Of a stretch of 47,261 nt of DNA, positions 28,402 through 36,487 are shown piece by piece; the first letter of the stretch is position 1; each line of letters begins with the position of its first letter. The notes beneath the pieces are model-generated. The model was given only the letters and a program-made list of their open reading frames with translations, ran no database searches and was not told where the DNA came from. Position numbers and translations under genes: made by a program. Source of the DNA: Candidatus Hydrogenedentes bacterium CG07_land_8_20_14_0_80_42_17 (GTDB taxonomy: Bacteria > UBA8481); contig PEWQ01000075.1 in NCBI GenBank assembly GCA_002780065.1, forward strand, positions 1 through 47,261, given 5' to 3'.

Positions 28402-29406
28402 CTAATGGCAGGACTCTTTCAAGCTATTTTTTATCTTTTCTAATATATCTGCAAGACCCTCAGTTACAGGGGCAATTTCATATTCTATCAGGTCCCCTAT
28501 TAATACTCTGTCCTTACGCTCAAAAGCTTCAATCAATTCCTGCAGTATGCCCGCAATCTCCTGATTTCGCTCTTCAAAGCTCTTTCCTTTGATATCCAAA
28601 TCATGAGAATAATTCGGCAATTCCTTTTTGCATCTATCAACCAAAATAAAAGCCTCTTCTATTGAAGAAATGCACGCCGCGAACTCCTCCATTCCTTTTA
28701 TTGAATCTCCAATAGAAATGTTGATGGCTATATTTTCAAGTTTTTCCGGCAGTTCTCGAATTATAGGCAATTGTTCGGTTATTTCCTCCATTAGGTTACT
28801 GCCTTCTGAAGTTAATGACGCATTTTCTAAAACCAAAGGAAGAGCATGAACTAATCGGTCGCAAAGAAGTGTTAGCGAACTTCCTAGAATACCTGCCAGC
28901 GCCGCGTGATTATTATTTTTCTGAGCCTCTTCGATATGTTCGCGGATGTCGCCAAGTTTAAGAAGGAGTTTAGAAAACTTTTCACCATCGAATTCTAAGT
29001 CGTGGTACGATATGCGGAGAATGCCTTCTACTCGTTTTAATACGTCTTCGCTCCATCGCAATCCATCGACCAATTGTTTTATATCATCTGCTTGAATGCC
29101 GTTATCCTGCATTTTAGGAGCAAGCCTTGCGACTCGGTCAAGATAGTTTCCAAGCTCATGAATTGTTTCGCCGACAAGTAATCGAACGTTCTGAACCTCA
29201 ACATCCATTTTTTTGCAAGAATCTATCGGCGCCGACCGGATAGATTTATCTTCCAAAAAATTTACGGATTTATCATCAAGGCGCAGGCTTACAATTACAC
29301 AGCCTTTACCAGACATCCACTCTTGAAGTCCGTCAATGATTTCACCGAGCGTAGCTTCATTTTCGATTTCATAATCTATAGACTTGCCATTAATATAAAT
29401 ATTCAC
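28402..29406 (-). CDS. Hypothetical protein: beta-grasp-like N-terminus and long helical region, downstream of flagellin
   Basis: MNIYINGKSIDYEIENEATLGEIIDGLQEWMSGKGCVIVSLRLDDKSVNF (small beta-rich domain), remainder helical; GTG start. Confidence 0.5.
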   Translation of the reverse strand: MNIYINGKSIDYEIENEATLGEIIDGLQEWMSGKGCVIVSLRLDDKSVNFLEDKSIRSAPIDSCKKMDVEVQNVRLLVGETIHELGNYLDRVARLAPKMQDNGIQADDIKQLVDGLRWSEDVLKRVEGILRISYHDLEFDGEKFSKLLLKLGDIREHIEEAQKNNNHAALAGILGSSLTLLCDRLVHALPLVLENASLTSEGSNLMEEITEQLPIIRELPEKLENIAINISIGDSIKGMEEFAACISSIEEAFILVDRCKKELPNYSHDLDIKGKSFEERNQEIAGILQELIEAFERKDRVLIGDLIEYEIAPVTEGLADILEKIKNSLKESCH

Positions 29407-29497: not shown

Positions 29498-29530
29498 AAA
29501 AAAAAGGGCGGACGCTTTTTACGTCCGCCC
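29498..29530 (-). terminator. Intrinsic terminator of flagellin
   Basis: Minus strand: GGGCGGACG-TAAAAAG-CGTCCGCCC followed by T8-9. Confidence 0.92.
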
Positions 29531-29568: not shown

Positions 29569-30435
29569 TTATTGCAGCAACGAAAGTACGACCTGTGGAG
29601 AAATGTTTGCCTGACTCAGAGCCGAGATACCTGTCTGTTGCAGTATCTGGTTCTTCGTGAAGTTCACAATCTCTTCCGCAAAGTCAGCATCTCGTATTCG
29701 TGACTCTGCCGCGGTTATGTTCTCGGTGCTGATTCCGACGAACGCAACAACGTTCTCGAACCGATTTACATAAGCGCCAAGGTCGCCTCTCTGCCGAGAC
29801 ACTGTGTCGACAGCAGATTGAATCAGCGTAATCGCGCTTTCAGCTCCGGCCTGAGTAATTACTCCACCGCTCGTAAGACCGGCAGTGTCGCCTGTTTGCA
29901 AATTGCCCAAAGCTAAACCGGTAATCGAAATCGAAGCAATATTAACTGCAAGGCGTTCGCCTTGATTTGCACCGACCTGAAATACCAGAGAACCAGTTCC
30001 TGAAGCAAACGTGCCATTCAAAAGTATTCTGCCGTTAAACGATGTTGCTGAAGCTTGTCGTCCTATTTCAGCGATTAACTGATTTACTTCGGTCTGGATC
30101 ACTCGACGGTCAACTGTCGTATTTGTGTCGTTGGATGCCTGAACTGCCAATGTCCTTAATCTCTGAAGCATATCCGAGATCTGAGACAATCCACCTTCAG
30201 CAACCTGTATCAACGAAATAGCGTCTTGCGCGTTTCGCTTGGACTGTTCAAGACCATTAACCTGAGTTCGCATTCTTTCCGACACGCCGAATCCTGCCGC
30301 ATCATCTGCCGCACGATTGATACGAAGACCGGAAGAAAGCCGCTCGATAGACTTGTTTAAAGCTCCTGATGTTTGAGTTAGAAGCCTCGACGCAAATAGA
30401 GCCGAGACATTTGTTTTAATTCGTAAACCTGACAT
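29569..30435 (-). CDS. fliC: Flagellin
   Basis: LTQTSGALNKSIERLSSGLRINRAADDAAGFGVSERMRTQVNGLEQSKRNAQDAISLIQVAEGGL...ESRIRDADFAEEIVNFTKNQILQQTGISALSQANISPQVVLSLL. Confidence 0.98.
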   Translation of the reverse strand: MSGLRIKTNVSALFASRLLTQTSGALNKSIERLSSGLRINRAADDAAGFGVSERMRTQVNGLEQSKRNAQDAISLIQVAEGGLSQISDMLQRLRTLAVQASNDTNTTVDRRVIQTEVNQLIAEIGRQASATSFNGRILLNGTFASGTGSLVFQVGANQGERLAVNIASISITGLALGNLQTGDTAGLTSGGVITQAGAESAITLIQSAVDTVSRQRGDLGAYVNRFENVVAFVGISTENITAAESRIRDADFAEEIVNFTKNQILQQTGISALSQANISPQVVLSLLQ

Positions 30436-30439
30436 TTTA

Positions 30440-30455
30440 TCACCCTCCGTGGTGA
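30440..30455 (-). promoter_or_regulatory. Flagellin Shine-Dalgarno hairpin with CsrA-type GGA loop
   Basis: Minus strand TCACC-ACGGAG-GGTGA; CACGGAGG matches CANGGANG and includes the SD GGAGG. Confidence 0.65.
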
Positions 30456-30495
30456 AAAGATATTATCCATCAACCGGATACTCATCTCCGCAGAC

Positions 30496-30513
30496 AATGT
30501 CATCCCTGACATT
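30496..30513 (-). promoter_or_regulatory. Second CsrA-type hairpin in flagellin leader
   Basis: Minus strand AATGTCA-GGGA-TGACATT; CAGGGATG matches CANGGANG. Confidence 0.6.
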
Positions 30514-30582
30514 ATCGTGCGCAGTTCGCCATGGTATCCGCTGAAAGCAACTCGGGGGCCACCCGATTGCTCTTCCGATTTC

Positions 30583-30954
30583 CTACGACTGATCGTTAAA
30601 CAAAAGACCGACAAGTGAACCAAAGGATTGACGCATCTTTGAAATGTCTCCGGGCGGAATCATGCGAACTAATTCGCCTGTATCGCCGTCCGTAACCTTT
30701 ATTACGATCCTCCCAGTTTCCTTGTCGACAGAAAATTGAAGATTCCTGTCAATAGCTTTTGAAACAGAATTGAGTGCGTCAGCAACATCGGACACGGTCT
30801 TTTCGCTCAAACTTTTTTGCTCTTCACTTTTTTCCGAATCGAGTTTTTTTTCAAATTTCTCTTCGGATGGTTGAGCTTTAGTTTTTGGATCAGACCAATC
30901 GATTGCCAATGAACCCGCTACCTCCGGTGTAGATAATTGAAGATTGTCGGCCAT
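30583..30954 (-). CDS. flaG: FlaG-family protein
   Basis: ALNSVSKAIDRNLQFSVDKETGRIVIKVTDGDTGELVRMIPPGDISKMRQSFGSLVGLLFN. Confidence 0.93.
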   Translation of the reverse strand: MADNLQLSTPEVAGSLAIDWSDPKTKAQPSEEKFEKKLDSEKSEEQKSLSEKTVSDVADALNSVSKAIDRNLQFSVDKETGRIVIKVTDGDTGELVRMIPPGDISKMRQSFGSLVGLLFNDQS

Positions 30955-30987: not shown

Positions 30988-31129
30988 CCGCAAAATAAAT
31001 CTAAATTGCGGTTCGCTATACGGATTTTTAGGGATCAACTCAGGAATTTCCTGAGGCGCCTCTACCTCCGTGTAGCAGTCAACCTCTAGCGATAAGCTTC
31101 GGATCCGTCCGAAGTGTATAAAATCGCTA
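30988..31129 (-). promoter_or_regulatory. Structured leader RNA of flaG-fliC with multiple stems and GGA-loop hairpins
   Basis: Minus strand stems: TAGCGAT/ATCGCTA (31123-31129/31087-31093) enclosing CTTCGGA-CGGA-TCCGAAG (31097-31114); CTAC-ACGGAG-GTAG (31062-31075); CTCAGGA-AAT-TCCTGAG (31039-31055); CCGCAA/TTGCGG (31006-31011/30988-30993). Confidence 0.6.
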
Positions 31130-31135
31130 ATTCAC

Positions 31136-31163
31136 TTATCGGATTAATTCAAAGAGAACTTTA
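31136..31163 (-). promoter_or_regulatory. Sigma28 (FliA/SigD)-type promoter
   Basis: Minus strand TAAAGTTC...TCCGATAA: TAAA (31160-31163), 16 nt spacer, TCCGATAA (31136-31143). Confidence 0.75.
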
Positions 31164-31243: not shown

Positions 31244-32815
31244 ATGAGTAATGAACCGCTTGCAAAAACTCTGGGACTTCTTTCTGCAGAATTAGATATT
31301 TCCAAAAACGGACTTCCAATTCTTTCATCTGGAGCGCAAACTTTTTACAGCAGATATAATCCCAAAGTCGAAGCCGAACGATTTGCTTCAACTATTACTT
31401 CGAAAAAAGTTTGCATAATCGGACTGGGACTTGGATATATCGCAGAGGTGTTAGGCGACAGATTGCAAAGTATTTTATCGTTTGAAGGTGAAAGCGCGCG
31501 TTTGAAAGCCGTAGCTCCTGATTCGTTTCAAAAGTTATTCGATAAGATTAAGGAATTTTCAAACCTTATCGAACTTGAGCGTGCCGCCGCGAATTCAATG
31601 AGTCCCAATGTTTCGTTTGTAATAGAACCGTCGATTGCGAAAGCACCTCAACTTTTTATTCGGCTTCAAGATCTTCTCAAAATGTTTTCGACGCAAATTC
31701 GCTGTGCCGTAATTCATCTGAGGACTGCCGGAGATGTAATACGTTCTCTTCAAGCGGTTCAGAATTTTAAACAACAAAATCCAAATTGGAAGATTACTTT
31801 TATTACTGAAGAGCCTTACGGAGAACTTGCGGAGATGGCGAAAGGTATCGATGAAGTAATTGAAGTTTCAAAAGATGCTTCGGCTATTCCTGAACTGCCA
31901 AGGCAGTTAATTGCATTCAATCTCGGAGCCGAACCTAAAGCCGTTCAAATTCTTTCGAGTTTTAATCCGGTATTCTCCGTAGGCTTTTCAGGAAAAGAAT
32001 TAGCTTTGATAGACGACAGAAACATGAAGCATGCAGAAGAACTCGCGCTTATCCGCAATCGAATGAATCGATACCATTTTTATCAAATGCTTCTCGGTCT
32101 CACGCCATCTTTTGATACTCCGAAACTTAGTTTAGAGTGGAAGCCGCAGGATTATAATGTGGTTCAATTCGGAGCAGGAAGCGGTGCGGAGATCTGGGAT
32201 GCAAAAAGAATTCGACCGGAAATAATCGGAGAAGCAATAAAAAAATATGGCGGGAAGTGGATCGCAGTCGGTTCTAAAGACGAATTTGTGCGCGCACAGA
32301 CTGCCGGGATTGCCGAAGAAGATAATTATTGCGGAAAGACTAATTGGAAAGATCTGGCTGAACTTATTTCAGGAGCGAAAATATATCTGGGACACGATAG
32401 CGGGCCTACTCATCTTTCCTCAGCGCTCGGAGCTCCAACACTTGCGCTCTTCGGATTCACTTCTCCTATACTCAACGAGCCTGTGGGACCGAGAACCTTG
32501 TTACTACAAGCCGACATGCCTTGCGCATTCAGAGGCTGTAAAGTTGCATGTTCGGAAAAAACCTGTGCAAATTCTTTTGACAGCTTCGCAATTATTGCAG
32601 GAATTGATTTACTGCTTGCAAATACTTTATCTGAAAGATTAGATGCGGCGGAGAAGTTAACTGCGAGCGGAATAAGATATTTCATTCCGCAGATTTCAGT
32701 CGAAGATGAAAATCCTTTTAGAAAAGATTTGATCGGCGAGCCTAGAATAGGCTGTCCAATTGATTTACCTCTGGCACTTCTCAGAGAATGGCTGGAACTG
32801 AGAGAGCGTTATTGA
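31244..32815 (+). CDS. Fusion of MAF-like (flagellin glycosylation) N-terminal region and GT9 heptosyltransferase-like domain
   Basis: GLPILSSGAQTFYSRYNPKVEAERFASTITSKKVCIIGLGLGYIAEVL then AVIHLRTAGDVIRSLQAVQNFKQQNPNWKITFITEEPYGEL...YLGHDSGPTHLSSALGAPTLALFGFTSP. Confidence 0.75.
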   Translation: MSNEPLAKTLGLLSAELDISKNGLPILSSGAQTFYSRYNPKVEAERFASTITSKKVCIIGLGLGYIAEVLGDRLQSILSFEGESARLKAVAPDSFQKLFDKIKEFSNLIELERAAANSMSPNVSFVIEPSIAKAPQLFIRLQDLLKMFSTQIRCAVIHLRTAGDVIRSLQAVQNFKQQNPNWKITFITEEPYGELAEMAKGIDEVIEVSKDASAIPELPRQLIAFNLGAEPKAVQILSSFNPVFSVGFSGKELALIDDRNMKHAEELALIRNRMNRYHFYQMLLGLTPSFDTPKLSLEWKPQDYNVVQFGAGSGAEIWDAKRIRPEIIGEAIKKYGGKWIAVGSKDEFVRAQTAGIAEEDNYCGKTNWKDLAELISGAKIYLGHDSGPTHLSSALGAPTLALFGFTSPILNEPVGPRTLLLQADMPCAFRGCKVACSEKTCANSFDSFAIIAGIDLLLANTLSERLDAAEKLTASGIRYFIPQISVEDENPFRKDLIGEPRIGCPIDLPLALLREWLELRERY

Positions 32816-34152
32816 TGAGAACTCTGGTCATACTTCCGAACGCAATCGGCGATGTAATTTGCGGAATTGGAATTGCAAAAAAGTTTCTCGAAGATGGTTC
32901 AGTGACGTGGATTGTAAATTCGTCAGCGGCAGGCGTATTGAAGAATGAAGGATTTGAGCTGATTCATTCCCCTTCGAAATCTGTGCAGAATATGAACAGA
33001 TTCGGCGCGCGAATCGAAACTATGCGCGGAGTTTTAAAAGACTTTCTTTTCGATCTATCGAAATTCGGGAAATGGGACAGAGTAGTGAATCTGCATCTAA
33101 CCAGAGCATCGTCATTGATAGCAGGTGGAGCTAGTGCGCAAGAATACAAAGGTCCTGCATTGAACGATAAAATTATTTCCGATACATGGTCGGACTTTTT
33201 TATCTCTTCAATTACTTTGGGATTGAATCCTCTCTTCGATGTTGCAGAACGTTATTCTATGATTGCAGGATTTAAAGAAATAGTAAGAACTGATTTTCGC
33301 CATAAGCGAATTAAAAATGAAAGACGTATCTGTCTGCATCCGGGCTCAGGCTGGGAAACGAAAAGGCTTTCAGTAAAGCAGGCGGCGGAAATAGCTGACG
33401 GTCTGAACGAATTCGGAGAAGTGGCAATCATCGGTGCTTCGCATGAAGCAGAGATGCTCGATGCAATAAAAAGAGAAATGAAATCCAAGCCGGAAGAATT
33501 CTGCCCGGGAAAAATAGATATTGCTTTGCAACAGATTCTCTCTTCATGCCTTGTCGTCACGACTGATACTTGGGCTCTTCATGCGGCTCGCGCAGCAAGA
33601 ATTCCAACAATCGCCTTACTTGGACCGACGCGTGTTTTTCCATCGAACTCCGGTTTCGCAATTTCGCCGTTTGAAGAGCCGTCATGGAAAGATAAAGATG
33701 ATACTTCCATTAACAAAATAAATTCTCGAGAAGTTGTAAAACTTGCGGAAAGCATTTTAGATGGAACCGAATTGGATTCCGCTGATTTTCAGAATTGCGT
33801 ATGGGATTGCAGAAATGACTTTCCCGCGCCTATAACTCCATTGCCTGATTCCGGAGCGAGAACGGCTCAGAGAATATTTGCATGGGCAAGAGGCAAAGCA
33901 TTCGCTGAAATTGTAAAGAGCATCTTTCCGGAGTTGCCGCAACCCATACTTATGCCGGCAAACCTACTCAAACAAAATTATAGAGAATTGCCTTCAATTG
34001 CAAAATTGAAAGAGAACTCTAATTCAGAGGGCAGAAAAAAGTTTCCGCTTTTTGAAACTACTTTTTCAGGAAAAGATGCTGAAAGAATTCAAAAGAGATG
34101 GATACAAAGAACATTGGAACTGATTTCCGACTTCGAACAAAATAATCGGTAG
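32815..34152 (+). CDS. GT9-family glycosyltransferase
   Basis: MRTLVILPNAIGDVICGIGIAKKF, RICLHPGSGWETKRLSVKQ, VVTTDTWALHAARAARIPTIALLGPTRVFPS; begins at ATG 32815. Confidence 0.8.
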   Translation: MRTLVILPNAIGDVICGIGIAKKFLEDGSVTWIVNSSAAGVLKNEGFELIHSPSKSVQNMNRFGARIETMRGVLKDFLFDLSKFGKWDRVVNLHLTRASSLIAGGASAQEYKGPALNDKIISDTWSDFFISSITLGLNPLFDVAERYSMIAGFKEIVRTDFRHKRIKNERRICLHPGSGWETKRLSVKQAAEIADGLNEFGEVAIIGASHEAEMLDAIKREMKSKPEEFCPGKIDIALQQILSSCLVVTTDTWALHAARAARIPTIALLGPTRVFPSNSGFAISPFEEPSWKDKDDTSINKINSREVVKLAESILDGTELDSADFQNCVWDCRNDFPAPITPLPDSGARTAQRIFAWARGKAFAEIVKSIFPELPQPILMPANLLKQNYRELPSIAKLKENSNSEGRKKFPLFETTFSGKDAERIQKRWIQRTLELISDFEQNNR

Positions 34153-34186
34153 ACATTACTCTACATTTCTGCTAAATATTTACTCA

Positions 34187-34384
34187 CGTAGGTTGCAATC
34201 GTTCTAAGAATGATTGATGAAAAGTTGATGAACTCAGCTTTTTTAGGGAAGACGGTGCGAAGCCGTCGCGGACCCGCCGCTGTAACCATGGACGAAAACC
34301 GCAATGTGCCACTATTCTGAGCTTGTCGAAGAATGGTAAGGCGCGGCGAGTAGGATGATGTGGGAGCCAGAAGACCTGCCTACG
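34187..34384 (+). promoter_or_regulatory. Cobalamin (adenosylcobalamin-type) riboswitch
   Basis: P1 CGTAGG/CCTACG; TTTAGGGAAGACGGTGCGAAGCCGTCGCGGACCCGCCGCTGTAA core; B12-box AGCCAGAAGACCTGCC. Confidence 0.95.
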
Positions 34385-34445
34385 AATTTATTTTTGGCGC
34401 GCGCGTCTCGAGGATAGGACGCGGAGTATGCGGGATTGAACACGG

Positions 34446-34478
34446 AATCCCCGCTTCTATTGGAGCGGGGATTTTTTT
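34446..34478 (+). terminator. Rho-independent terminator forming riboswitch expression platform
   Basis: AATCCCCGCT-tctattgg-AGCGGGGATT + T7, 20 nt before the btuB ATG. Confidence 0.9.
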
Positions 34479-34498
34479 GCGCCCGAGGAGTTACAAAA

Positions 34499-36487
34499 AT
34501 GGTTAGGTTTATTGGTGCAGGTATCGGATTATTGATTCTTTGCTTTTCGGCAGGGGCATACGAAATTCCGACTGACTACGCTGAATATGAAATTTCAGCG
34601 ACAAGGTTGGAAGGATACAAATTGCCTTTATCGAGAACCGGCGCGGCGGTCACCGTCATTAGTCGAGAAGATATAGACAAAAGTGGAGTCACAACAATTC
34701 AAGAACTTCTTGAACGGCATGCCGGATTCAATATTTTTGATGAAAATGGAAATGAGCTCGAACATAAAGTTTCGATGAGAGGGTTCAAAGATGGAAATGA
34801 TATCGTCGTAGTGCTCGACGGAATGAGAATAAACGATCCAAATGGAAATTTTGTCGCATGGAATTTGATACCTTTGGAGTCAATCGATCGAATTGAAGTT
34901 GTGCGCGGCGGAGCTACTTCATTATATGGCCCGTATGCATTGTCAGGTGTCATAAAGATCTGGACTCGAAGAGGTAAAGAAACGAATGGAAGAATTACGA
35001 CAGGTATAAGTTCTCATGCAGGTCGAGATATGACAGTAAGTTGGGGATCAAGTACGGAACGAATCGACGGAAGCATCAATTCGACTGTGCGGCATGGAAA
35101 AGGATATAGAAATAATTCGGATTTTCATTACGAAGATCTTGGCGGAGAATTTGGAATTAGATTAGGTGACGGCAGATATGCAATTCAACTCCAGCGGCAC
35201 GAGGATAAAGTCGGAAGAGCAGGTGAATTAACGGAAGGAGCCATGTTGAGTTCACGGCAACAGACAGTGAAGCCGCTTGATTACGGCGAATTTGACCAAA
35301 CACGAATCGGCCTGTCCGCTCAGCATCCGCTCTTTGAAGGTGAGTTGAATTTGAGATTCAATTACCGCGAAAGAGATAGATTGACTCATTCTACGTCAAT
35401 TATTTTCGGAAACAGAACATTGACCTCAGACGATCTTTTTTCAAGAGCAGGAGTAGTCGAATGGTCTCGAAAATTCGGTAATCACGGCATTTCTCTGCTC
35501 TATGACGAAAAATATGACAATACTCTTGCGATACAGAAGAACGCGGCTACGAATGCAATGATGACGAACCGCACAATTACAGAGCGGACAAAATCCGGCG
35601 CGGCGCGAATCGATCTTGCGCTTGGCTCCGATTGGACTCTGACCGGAACTGCTCGTTACGATAATTTTAGAATATCGAATCGAGATAATCTCGGAGATAC
35701 AACGGCGGATGGTATTCGTAAATTCGATGAGTTCTCGCCAGGAGGCGCGTTGATATGGCATCCCGAGCCTCTCGGAAGAGACGGAAAGTTTTTCGTTTCC
35801 GCATCGCGCGGATATAAACCTCCGAACATATTCGAGCTTTATGCGTTTCCACTATGGGGTTCGAACAAAAATCTCTCACCCGCAAAATCAAAAACTATGG
35901 AAGCCGGCATTTTTATCGACCGTGATAAATTTGATCTTGGAACGACTCTTTTTGAGATTGATATGAAAGACGAAATATATTACGACCCTGCGACAAACAT
36001 GAATCTGAATATTGCTAAGACCGAACGAAAAGGAATTGAAACTTATCTCGGAATCGAGCTCGGAAAAAATCTTTCTCTATCAAGCGAATTGACTTGGATT
36101 GCTGCCAAGACAAAATTAAATCCAACTGCACTCCAAACGGAAGGAAAGCATATTCCTCAGGTGCCCGGCTTTCAATCGAGCACTACTCTTTCATGGGAGC
36201 CTGGTCGCTATTCGCTTGCCGTCACTCACAGGCATGTCGGAAAACAATGGGTGGATTTCGATGATGACAACAACATGTTGCAATTACCGTCTTATGATCT
36301 ATTTGACCTTACAGCATCATATCGTCCTCGCGAGACTGTAAAACTTGAACTCGCTGTAAAAAATATAGGCGGAAAGAAATATGTTTCAAGAGGTATAGAT
36401 TCATTTGACGGTTTCTGGAATCCGACAGTTTATTACAATCCGTCGCCTGAGACAGAATACTATGGTTCATTGACTTGGGAATTCTAA
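34499..36487 (+). CDS. btuB: TonB-dependent receptor, BtuB-like
   Basis: Plug domain YEISATRLEGYKLPLSRTGAAVTVISREDIDKSGVTTIQELLERHAGF..; C-terminal aromatic EF; downstream of cobalamin riboswitch; GAGGAG SD before ATG 34499. Confidence 0.92.
   Translation: MVRFIGAGIGLLILCFSAGAYEIPTDYAEYEISATRLEGYKLPLSRTGAAVTVISREDIDKSGVTTIQELLERHAGFNIFDENGNELEHKVSMRGFKDGNDIVVVLDGMRINDPNGNFVAWNLIPLESIDRIEVVRGGATSLYGPYALSGVIKIWTRRGKETNGRITTGISSHAGRDMTVSWGSSTERIDGSINSTVRHGKGYRNNSDFHYEDLGGEFGIRLGDGRYAIQLQRHEDKVGRAGELTEGAMLSSRQQTVKPLDYGEFDQTRIGLSAQHPLFEGELNLRFNYRERDRLTHSTSIIFGNRTLTSDDLFSRAGVVEWSRKFGNHGISLLYDEKYDNTLAIQKNAATNAMMTNRTITERTKSGAARIDLALGSDWTLTGTARYDNFRISNRDNLGDTTADGIRKFDEFSPGGALIWHPEPLGRDGKFFVSASRGYKPPNIFELYAFPLWGSNKNLSPAKSKTMEAGIFIDRDKFDLGTTLFEIDMKDEIYYDPATNMNLNIAKTERKGIETYLGIELGKNLSLSSELTWIAAKTKLNPTALQTEGKHIPQVPGFQSSTTLSWEPGRYSLAVTHRHVGKQWVDFDDDNNMLQLPSYDLFDLTASYRPRETVKLELAVKNIGGKKYVSRGIDSFDGFWNPTVYYNPSPETEYYGSLTWEF

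Follow-up and report, generated by a model that had tools for sequence, protein, structure and literature searches.

What does the long leader ahead of flaG do in this Candidatus Hydrogenedentes genome (G000)? On the minus strand of the window, the whole 47,261-nucleotide stretch analysed here, a sequence-only reading had described a sigma28-like promoter of the form TAAA-N16, a stem (P1) and four hairpins (H1 to H4), and had proposed that the RNA binds CsrA. The promoter motif was located at 31163-31136 (-), and the stem and all four hairpins lie ahead of flaG as described. The features of the locus are the following.

31136 to 31163, minus strand: sigma28-type promoter TAAA-N16-TCCGATAA, a motif match (full sequence TAAAGTTCTCTTTGAATTAATCCGATAA)
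31087 to 31129, minus strand: P1 stem UAGCGAU/AUCGCUA (arms 31129-31123 and 31093-31087), enclosing H1, at the predicted 5′ end of the RNA
31097 to 31114, minus strand: H1, CsrA-type hexaloop hairpin CUUCGG-ACGGAU-CCGAAG, from the hairpin scan
31062 to 31075, minus strand: H2, CsrA-type hexaloop hairpin CUAC-ACGGAG-GUAG, from the hairpin scan
31039 to 31055, minus strand: H3, CUCAGGA-AAU-UCCUGAG, with its GGA paired
30988 to 31011, minus strand: H4, CCGCAA...UUGCGG, with no terminator score
30964 to 30970, minus strand: flaG Shine-Dalgarno sequence (SD) AAGGAGG, outside any ANGGAN hairpin
30583 to 30954, minus strand: flaG, 123 aa, ATG at 30954 (PF03646, E = 2.8e-22)
30493 to 30516, minus strand: upstream site of a second hairpin pair, in the flaG-flagellin gap, 9-bp stem GAUAAUGUC-AGGGAU-GACAUUGUC, from the hairpin scan
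30440 to 30455, minus strand: downstream site of the second pair, UCACC-ACGGAG-GGUGA, covering the flagellin SD, from the hairpin scan
29569 to 30435, minus strand: flagellin, 288 aa (PF00669 and PF00700)
29506 to 29530, minus strand: strong intrinsic terminator downstream of flagellin, ending the flaG-flagellin transcript

P1 begins about 7 nt past the promoter, and inspection of the leader found no ATG upstream of the flaG start. The same type of promoter precedes flaG in the relative used for comparison (G001) and the paralogous flagellin genes on contigs C108 and C155. Since no intrinsic terminator was scored between 31131 and 30954 and a strong one follows flagellin, flaG and flagellin are probably carried by one transcript; the same lack of a scored terminator speaks against a stand-alone small RNA ending ahead of flaG. 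The flagellin is 78% identical to the one that follows flaG in the relative. With the second pair, whose sites are spaced by 57 nt, one flaG-flagellin mRNA offers up to four candidate CsrA sites.

Both leader stems noted earlier for a GGA-bearing loop carry ANGGAN hexaloops. H2, whose ACGGAG loop had been matched to the CsrA consensus, closes it with a 4-bp stem. H1 had been drawn with a 7-bp stem and a CGGA tetraloop; the hairpin stands, but a 6-bp stem closing an ACGGAU hexaloop describes it better, because the matching A and G in the relative cannot pair.

Several neighbouring features are recorded here for the window. A 334-aa ORF at 28402-29406, directly past the flagellin terminator, has no Pfam or NCBIfam match. 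Two ORFs diverge from flaG (31244-34152), the first with a glycosyltransferase family 9 domain and the second resembling it on visual inspection; they might have a part in the glycosylation of flagellin. A cobalamin riboswitch (RF00174, 101.9 bits) at 34173-34397 precedes an ORF (34436-36487) that resembles a TonB-dependent receptor.

Regulatory proteins and conservation in a relative

The proposal of CsrA binding had been made to depend on a CsrA being encoded in the genome. One was found by family search (82 aa; PF02599, E = 4e-25), with L4, V42 and R44 in place as read from its sequence and with fliW directly upstream, an arrangement shared by the relative. In the window's own genome flgK and flgL precede fliW-csrA, and a further flagellin gene with its own double site starts at the contig end. 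In the relative a single contig carries the order flgK-flgL-fliW-csrA-flagellin-flaG-flagellin (flgK and flgL named by sequence). Both genomes encode a FliA-type sigma factor. The solved structure that best matches this CsrA by sequence is 5dmb, which we take to be a FliW-CsrA complex. The partners that a FliW-CsrA-flagellin switch requires, FliW, CsrA and a flagellin with candidate CsrA sites, are thus all present, and family membership suggests that FliW would bind both CsrA and flagellin.

The leader was compared with that of one relative of the same order and another family, and covariation accordingly refers to two genomes; a DNA search of 59 relatives gave no match beyond the genome itself. 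In the relative the promoter is closely similar and its distance to P1 identical. P1 is found at the matching place as GCGGCUC/GAGCCGC, with a one-base shift needed in the 3′ arm, H1 as CUCCGG-ACGGAG-CCGGAG and H2 as CCGAC-ACGGAG-GUUGG. Counted by hand, and with the shift of the 3′ arm allowed, two-sided pair changes in P1 are A-U to G-C and U-A to C-G; those of H1 and H2 are U-A to C-G and U-A to G-U respectively. The ACGGA of both loops is unchanged, as is the flaG SD AAAGGAGGUGA. Between H1 and H2 the leader of the relative is lengthened by an insertion of about 33 nt, which carries a hairpin of its own and causes MAFFT to misplace H2 when the two leaders are aligned; the match of H2 comes from the hairpin scan and from visual comparison instead. 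The conservation of stems proposed earlier as a check thus holds, with paired changes, for P1, H1 and H2, but is not evident for H3 and H4 in the leader of the relative. Within the genome, the promoter and leader start of the paralogous C108 flagellin are 80% identical over 63 nt to those of flaG, after which the C108 leader diverges, ending with CAAACC-AAGGAG-GGUUUG over its SD.

On this basis we propose, with a probability of roughly three in four, that in the FliW-CsrA-flagellin circuit the flaG leader provides docking sites for CsrA. As judged from its sequence, the leader very probably binds CsrA, and control by FliW is likely.

Specificity of the hairpin pairs

The preferred target of CsrA is an ANGGA placed in the apical hexaloop of a stem (PMC4894983). 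A site was scored as an A-N-GGA-N hexaloop on a stem of 4 bp or more, other triplets in the place of GGA serving as controls, and the genome-wide counts cover 1.40 of 2.39 Mb (59%). Over this part of the genome single ANGGAN hairpins show no excess over control triplets, as expected of chance hairpins in an unremarkable leader, and single sites overlapping an SD are no commoner than their CGA controls; a lone hairpin is therefore no evidence here. Pairs behave differently. With 0.011 ANGGAN hexaloops per 180 nt (1.40 Mb), any one stretch of 180 nt would hold at least two with a probability of about 6e-5; in the relative, where the two sites occur at matching positions, the figure is 2.4e-4. 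Chance is, by these figures, the least probable of the explanations considered.

Double sites within 110 nt were found four times in the 1.40 Mb, all at flagellin genes: in the flaG leader, in the flaG-flagellin gap, at the flagellin after csrA and at the C108 flagellin, whose second site contains G-U pairs and sits in the coding region. Among the controls, GAG and GTA gave zero or one such pair, GCA one, and AGG and CGA two, the maximum for triplets of mixed composition; some A/T-rich triplets reached nine, largely in repeated or A/T-rich sequence. The window holds ten ANGGAN sites on both strands, four of them, H1, H2 and the second pair, inside 664 nt of the minus strand. Four sites within 700 nt occurred once for GGA in the 1.40 Mb, at this operon, and otherwise just for TAA and TTA. 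Counting hexaloops against control triplets offers a simple way of finding CsrA-type flagellin leaders.

Three further loci came to light in these scans. On contig C90 (L120:3521-3560) a fliD-like gene (MGSGIDFDS...) has a sigma28 promoter and its SD inside AACCC-AAGGAG-GGGUU, and is a probable further CsrA target. On contig C127 (L228:5199-5216) a 6-bp hairpin, UUCUCC-ACGGAG-GGAGAA, covers the SD of a short ORF that begins with MRWCEWTQLKPGMKVVTPIY; this is a possible non-flagellar target. Perfect hairpins GGGCAGAC-ACATAG-GTCTGCCC are repeated at L154:3380-3483 and L156:5-75 with a spacing of about 33-51 nt, forming a small palindromic repeat family.

The scan was also applied to the 150 nt ahead of about 79 flagellin genes of other bacteria, a sample weighted to Bacillota and Actinomycetota; among the matches listed, identity to the query was at most 51% and there were no new close relatives. 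GGA hexaloop hairpins occur in 43 of these roughly 79 leaders, among the matches listed, whereas the remaining triplets reach three at most and the mean of all 64 is 1.3, a result that validates the detector. Hairpins that are CsrA-type by their sequence are thus common in the sampled flagellin leaders of Bacillota, Actinomycetota, Spirochaetota and others. Among 29 flaG leaders of other genomes GGA was found in two, no more than other triplets, so that, among those sampled, the pair in the flaG leader is special to this lineage.

One surveyed locus has another arrangement. In a Fusobacteriaceae metagenome-assembled genome (JAGNSM010000203.1, 1095-1390; L043), a sigma28-like promoter ahead of flagellin is accompanied by two hairpins with CsrA-type hexaloops, CUUAAAC-ACGGAG-GUUUAAG and AAUCUA-ACGGAU-UAGAUU; the segment has no ORF and no Rfam match, and an intrinsic terminator precedes the flagellin SD. 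It is a candidate for a stand-alone CsrA-binding small RNA or an attenuated leader.

Folding and possible outputs of the leader

The leader had been described as strongly structured, and folding of its 180 nt bears this out: the energy is -52.2 kcal/mol (z = -3.44), and none of 200 shuffles was equally stable. The P1-H1 module by itself has z = -3.75, and -3.28 in the relative. In the full-length thermodynamic fold, however, the closing pair of H2 has a probability of about 0, long-range pairing of GCUACACGGA with UCCGUAUAGC winning over its 4-bp stem, and the model predicts that H2 forms only locally or when stabilised. Conversely, the fold of the relative gives H2 a probability of 0.95 and the closing pair of H1 just 0.23. 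These values are a caveat to the docking element as modelled. They also mean that no single switch is common to both genomes and, since H2 competes with long-range pairing, that CsrA binding could itself alter the fold of the leader.

A long and strongly folded leader with a long-range alternative to one hairpin might also be a ligand-binding riboswitch or another sensor in which the GGA loops are incidental. The sequence-only reading had recognised no known riboswitch class, and Rfam agrees, with no match at the gathering score and nothing relevant at E up to 10. Moreover, the parts kept in the relative are the CsrA loops and their stems, whereas the sequence between them differs and carries the insertion. 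We consider a sensor highly improbable, and nothing indicates a new sensor class or a new RNA class.

As a CsrA-docking element, the leader could act as follows. By analogy, the sigma28-type promoter would belong to the late flagellar class and fire after completion of the hook. The first 70 nt or so would fold as P1-H1 and H2, exposing two ANGGAN hexaloops whose 37-nt spacing one CsrA dimer could bridge. Export of flagellin would then release FliW, FliW would remove CsrA, and translation would be freed. CsrA dimers bridge sites 10-63 nt apart, a range measured for E. coli CsrA (PMC7652899). The loops of the relative are 71 nt apart by sequence, beyond that range, which would be a caveat to bridging; their distance in space would be smaller if the intervening hairpin forms.

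The output of docking can be ordered with low confidence. In G000 a distance of about 90-150 nt separates H1 and H2 from the flaG SD downstream, and the hairpin scan found no ANGGAN hairpin at that SD in either genome. With both leader hairpins clear of the flaG SD in the two genomes, our leading guess, a tentative one, is that the leader buffers or titrates CsrA by keeping a dimer of it off the start sites. Close behind comes repression of flaG translation, with CsrA at H1 and H2 bridging to the SD, which itself holds GGA, or restructuring it. Repression is the commonest outcome of CsrA binding (PMC7652899), the SD is the same in both genomes, and the C. jejuni flaG leader, with a GGA near its SD, is bound by CsrA and flaG is repressed when FliW is absent (PMC4894983). 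Yet the SD lacks a hairpin of its own, and forcing H1 and H2 in the folding model left its predicted openness essentially as it was (0.50 to 0.48 and 0.01 to 0.01); opening or closing of the SD by these hairpins was thus discarded. As the hairpins fall short of the SD and forcing them is without effect, direct occlusion of flaG is not indicated, and we regard repression through bridging as doubtful.

Protection of the mRNA from decay, by CsrA bound near its 5′ end, is placed third and is unlikely. The model is E. coli flhDC, whose 5′ leader is stabilised by CsrA and has two sites near the 5′ end and off the SD (PMC7652899). The flaG leader has the same layout, and in both genomes P1 starts a few nucleotides at most from where transcription is predicted to begin. 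That start is a prediction, however, and P1 would shield the 5′ end even without CsrA. Activating a flagellin mRNA would also run counter to the pair over the flagellin SD, which is presumably repressive.

Returning to titration, it is conceivable, though we hold it doubtful, that the leader serves as a dedicated CsrA sink in cis, the late flagellar transcript opening with a two-hexaloop module that is free of an SD and that, together with FliW, lowers free CsrA. The operon's own mRNA would then relieve the repression of flagellin on itself and on paralogous flagellin mRNAs. If so, the titrating module would be separate from the repressing module on the same mRNA.

Comparison with known systems

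Most of what is known about the control of flagellin by CsrA comes from a few bacteria, B. subtilis and C. jejuni among them, in which one site overlies the SD. The flaG leader has the marks of a CsrA-regulated mRNA leader: ANGGA loops, a CsrA with its RNA-binding residues, and sites kept in the relative. It resembles CsrA-sequestering small RNAs of the CsrB/RsmZ type in carrying several GGA hexaloops on one RNA, but it is an mRNA leader with just two sites and no terminator before flaG; a CsrB/C-type small RNA, which would be a separate, self-terminated transcript rich in GGA hairpins, does not describe it. With E. coli flhDC it shares the two sites near the 5′ end, whereas flhDC is another gene in another lineage with other CsrA antagonists.

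In C. jejuni, the two ANGGA hexaloops of the flaA leader bind and titrate CsrA (Dugar et al. 2016, PMC4894983). The flaG leader of G000 shares with it the two ANGGA hexaloops, the presence of FliW and the compensatory changes. The flaA leader is, however, 45 nt long and its SD is covered by the second loop, while C. jejuni flaG forms a low-affinity target of its own. In G000 the flaG-leader hairpins are SD-distal, and the four candidate sites are probably combined on a single flaG-flagellin transcript.

The B. subtilis hag leader has two CsrA sites and is governed by a Hag-FliW-CsrA switch (PMC7652899). As in B. subtilis, fliW adjoins csrA near flagellin genes, and the flaG-flagellin gap has the hag layout, an upstream site and a site over the flagellin SD. 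Repression of the hag and flaA type, through a hairpin overlapping the SD, thus finds its hairpin at the downstream flagellin (UCACC-ACGGAG-GGUGA) and not at flaG. In contrast, hag has no additional SD-distal pair ahead of a co-transcribed flaG. It is this SD-distal placement of both flaG-leader hairpins that is unusual, a known CsrA hexaloop in a new position; an additional pair of this kind, in a sparsely sampled phylum, would make titration separable from repression on one mRNA.
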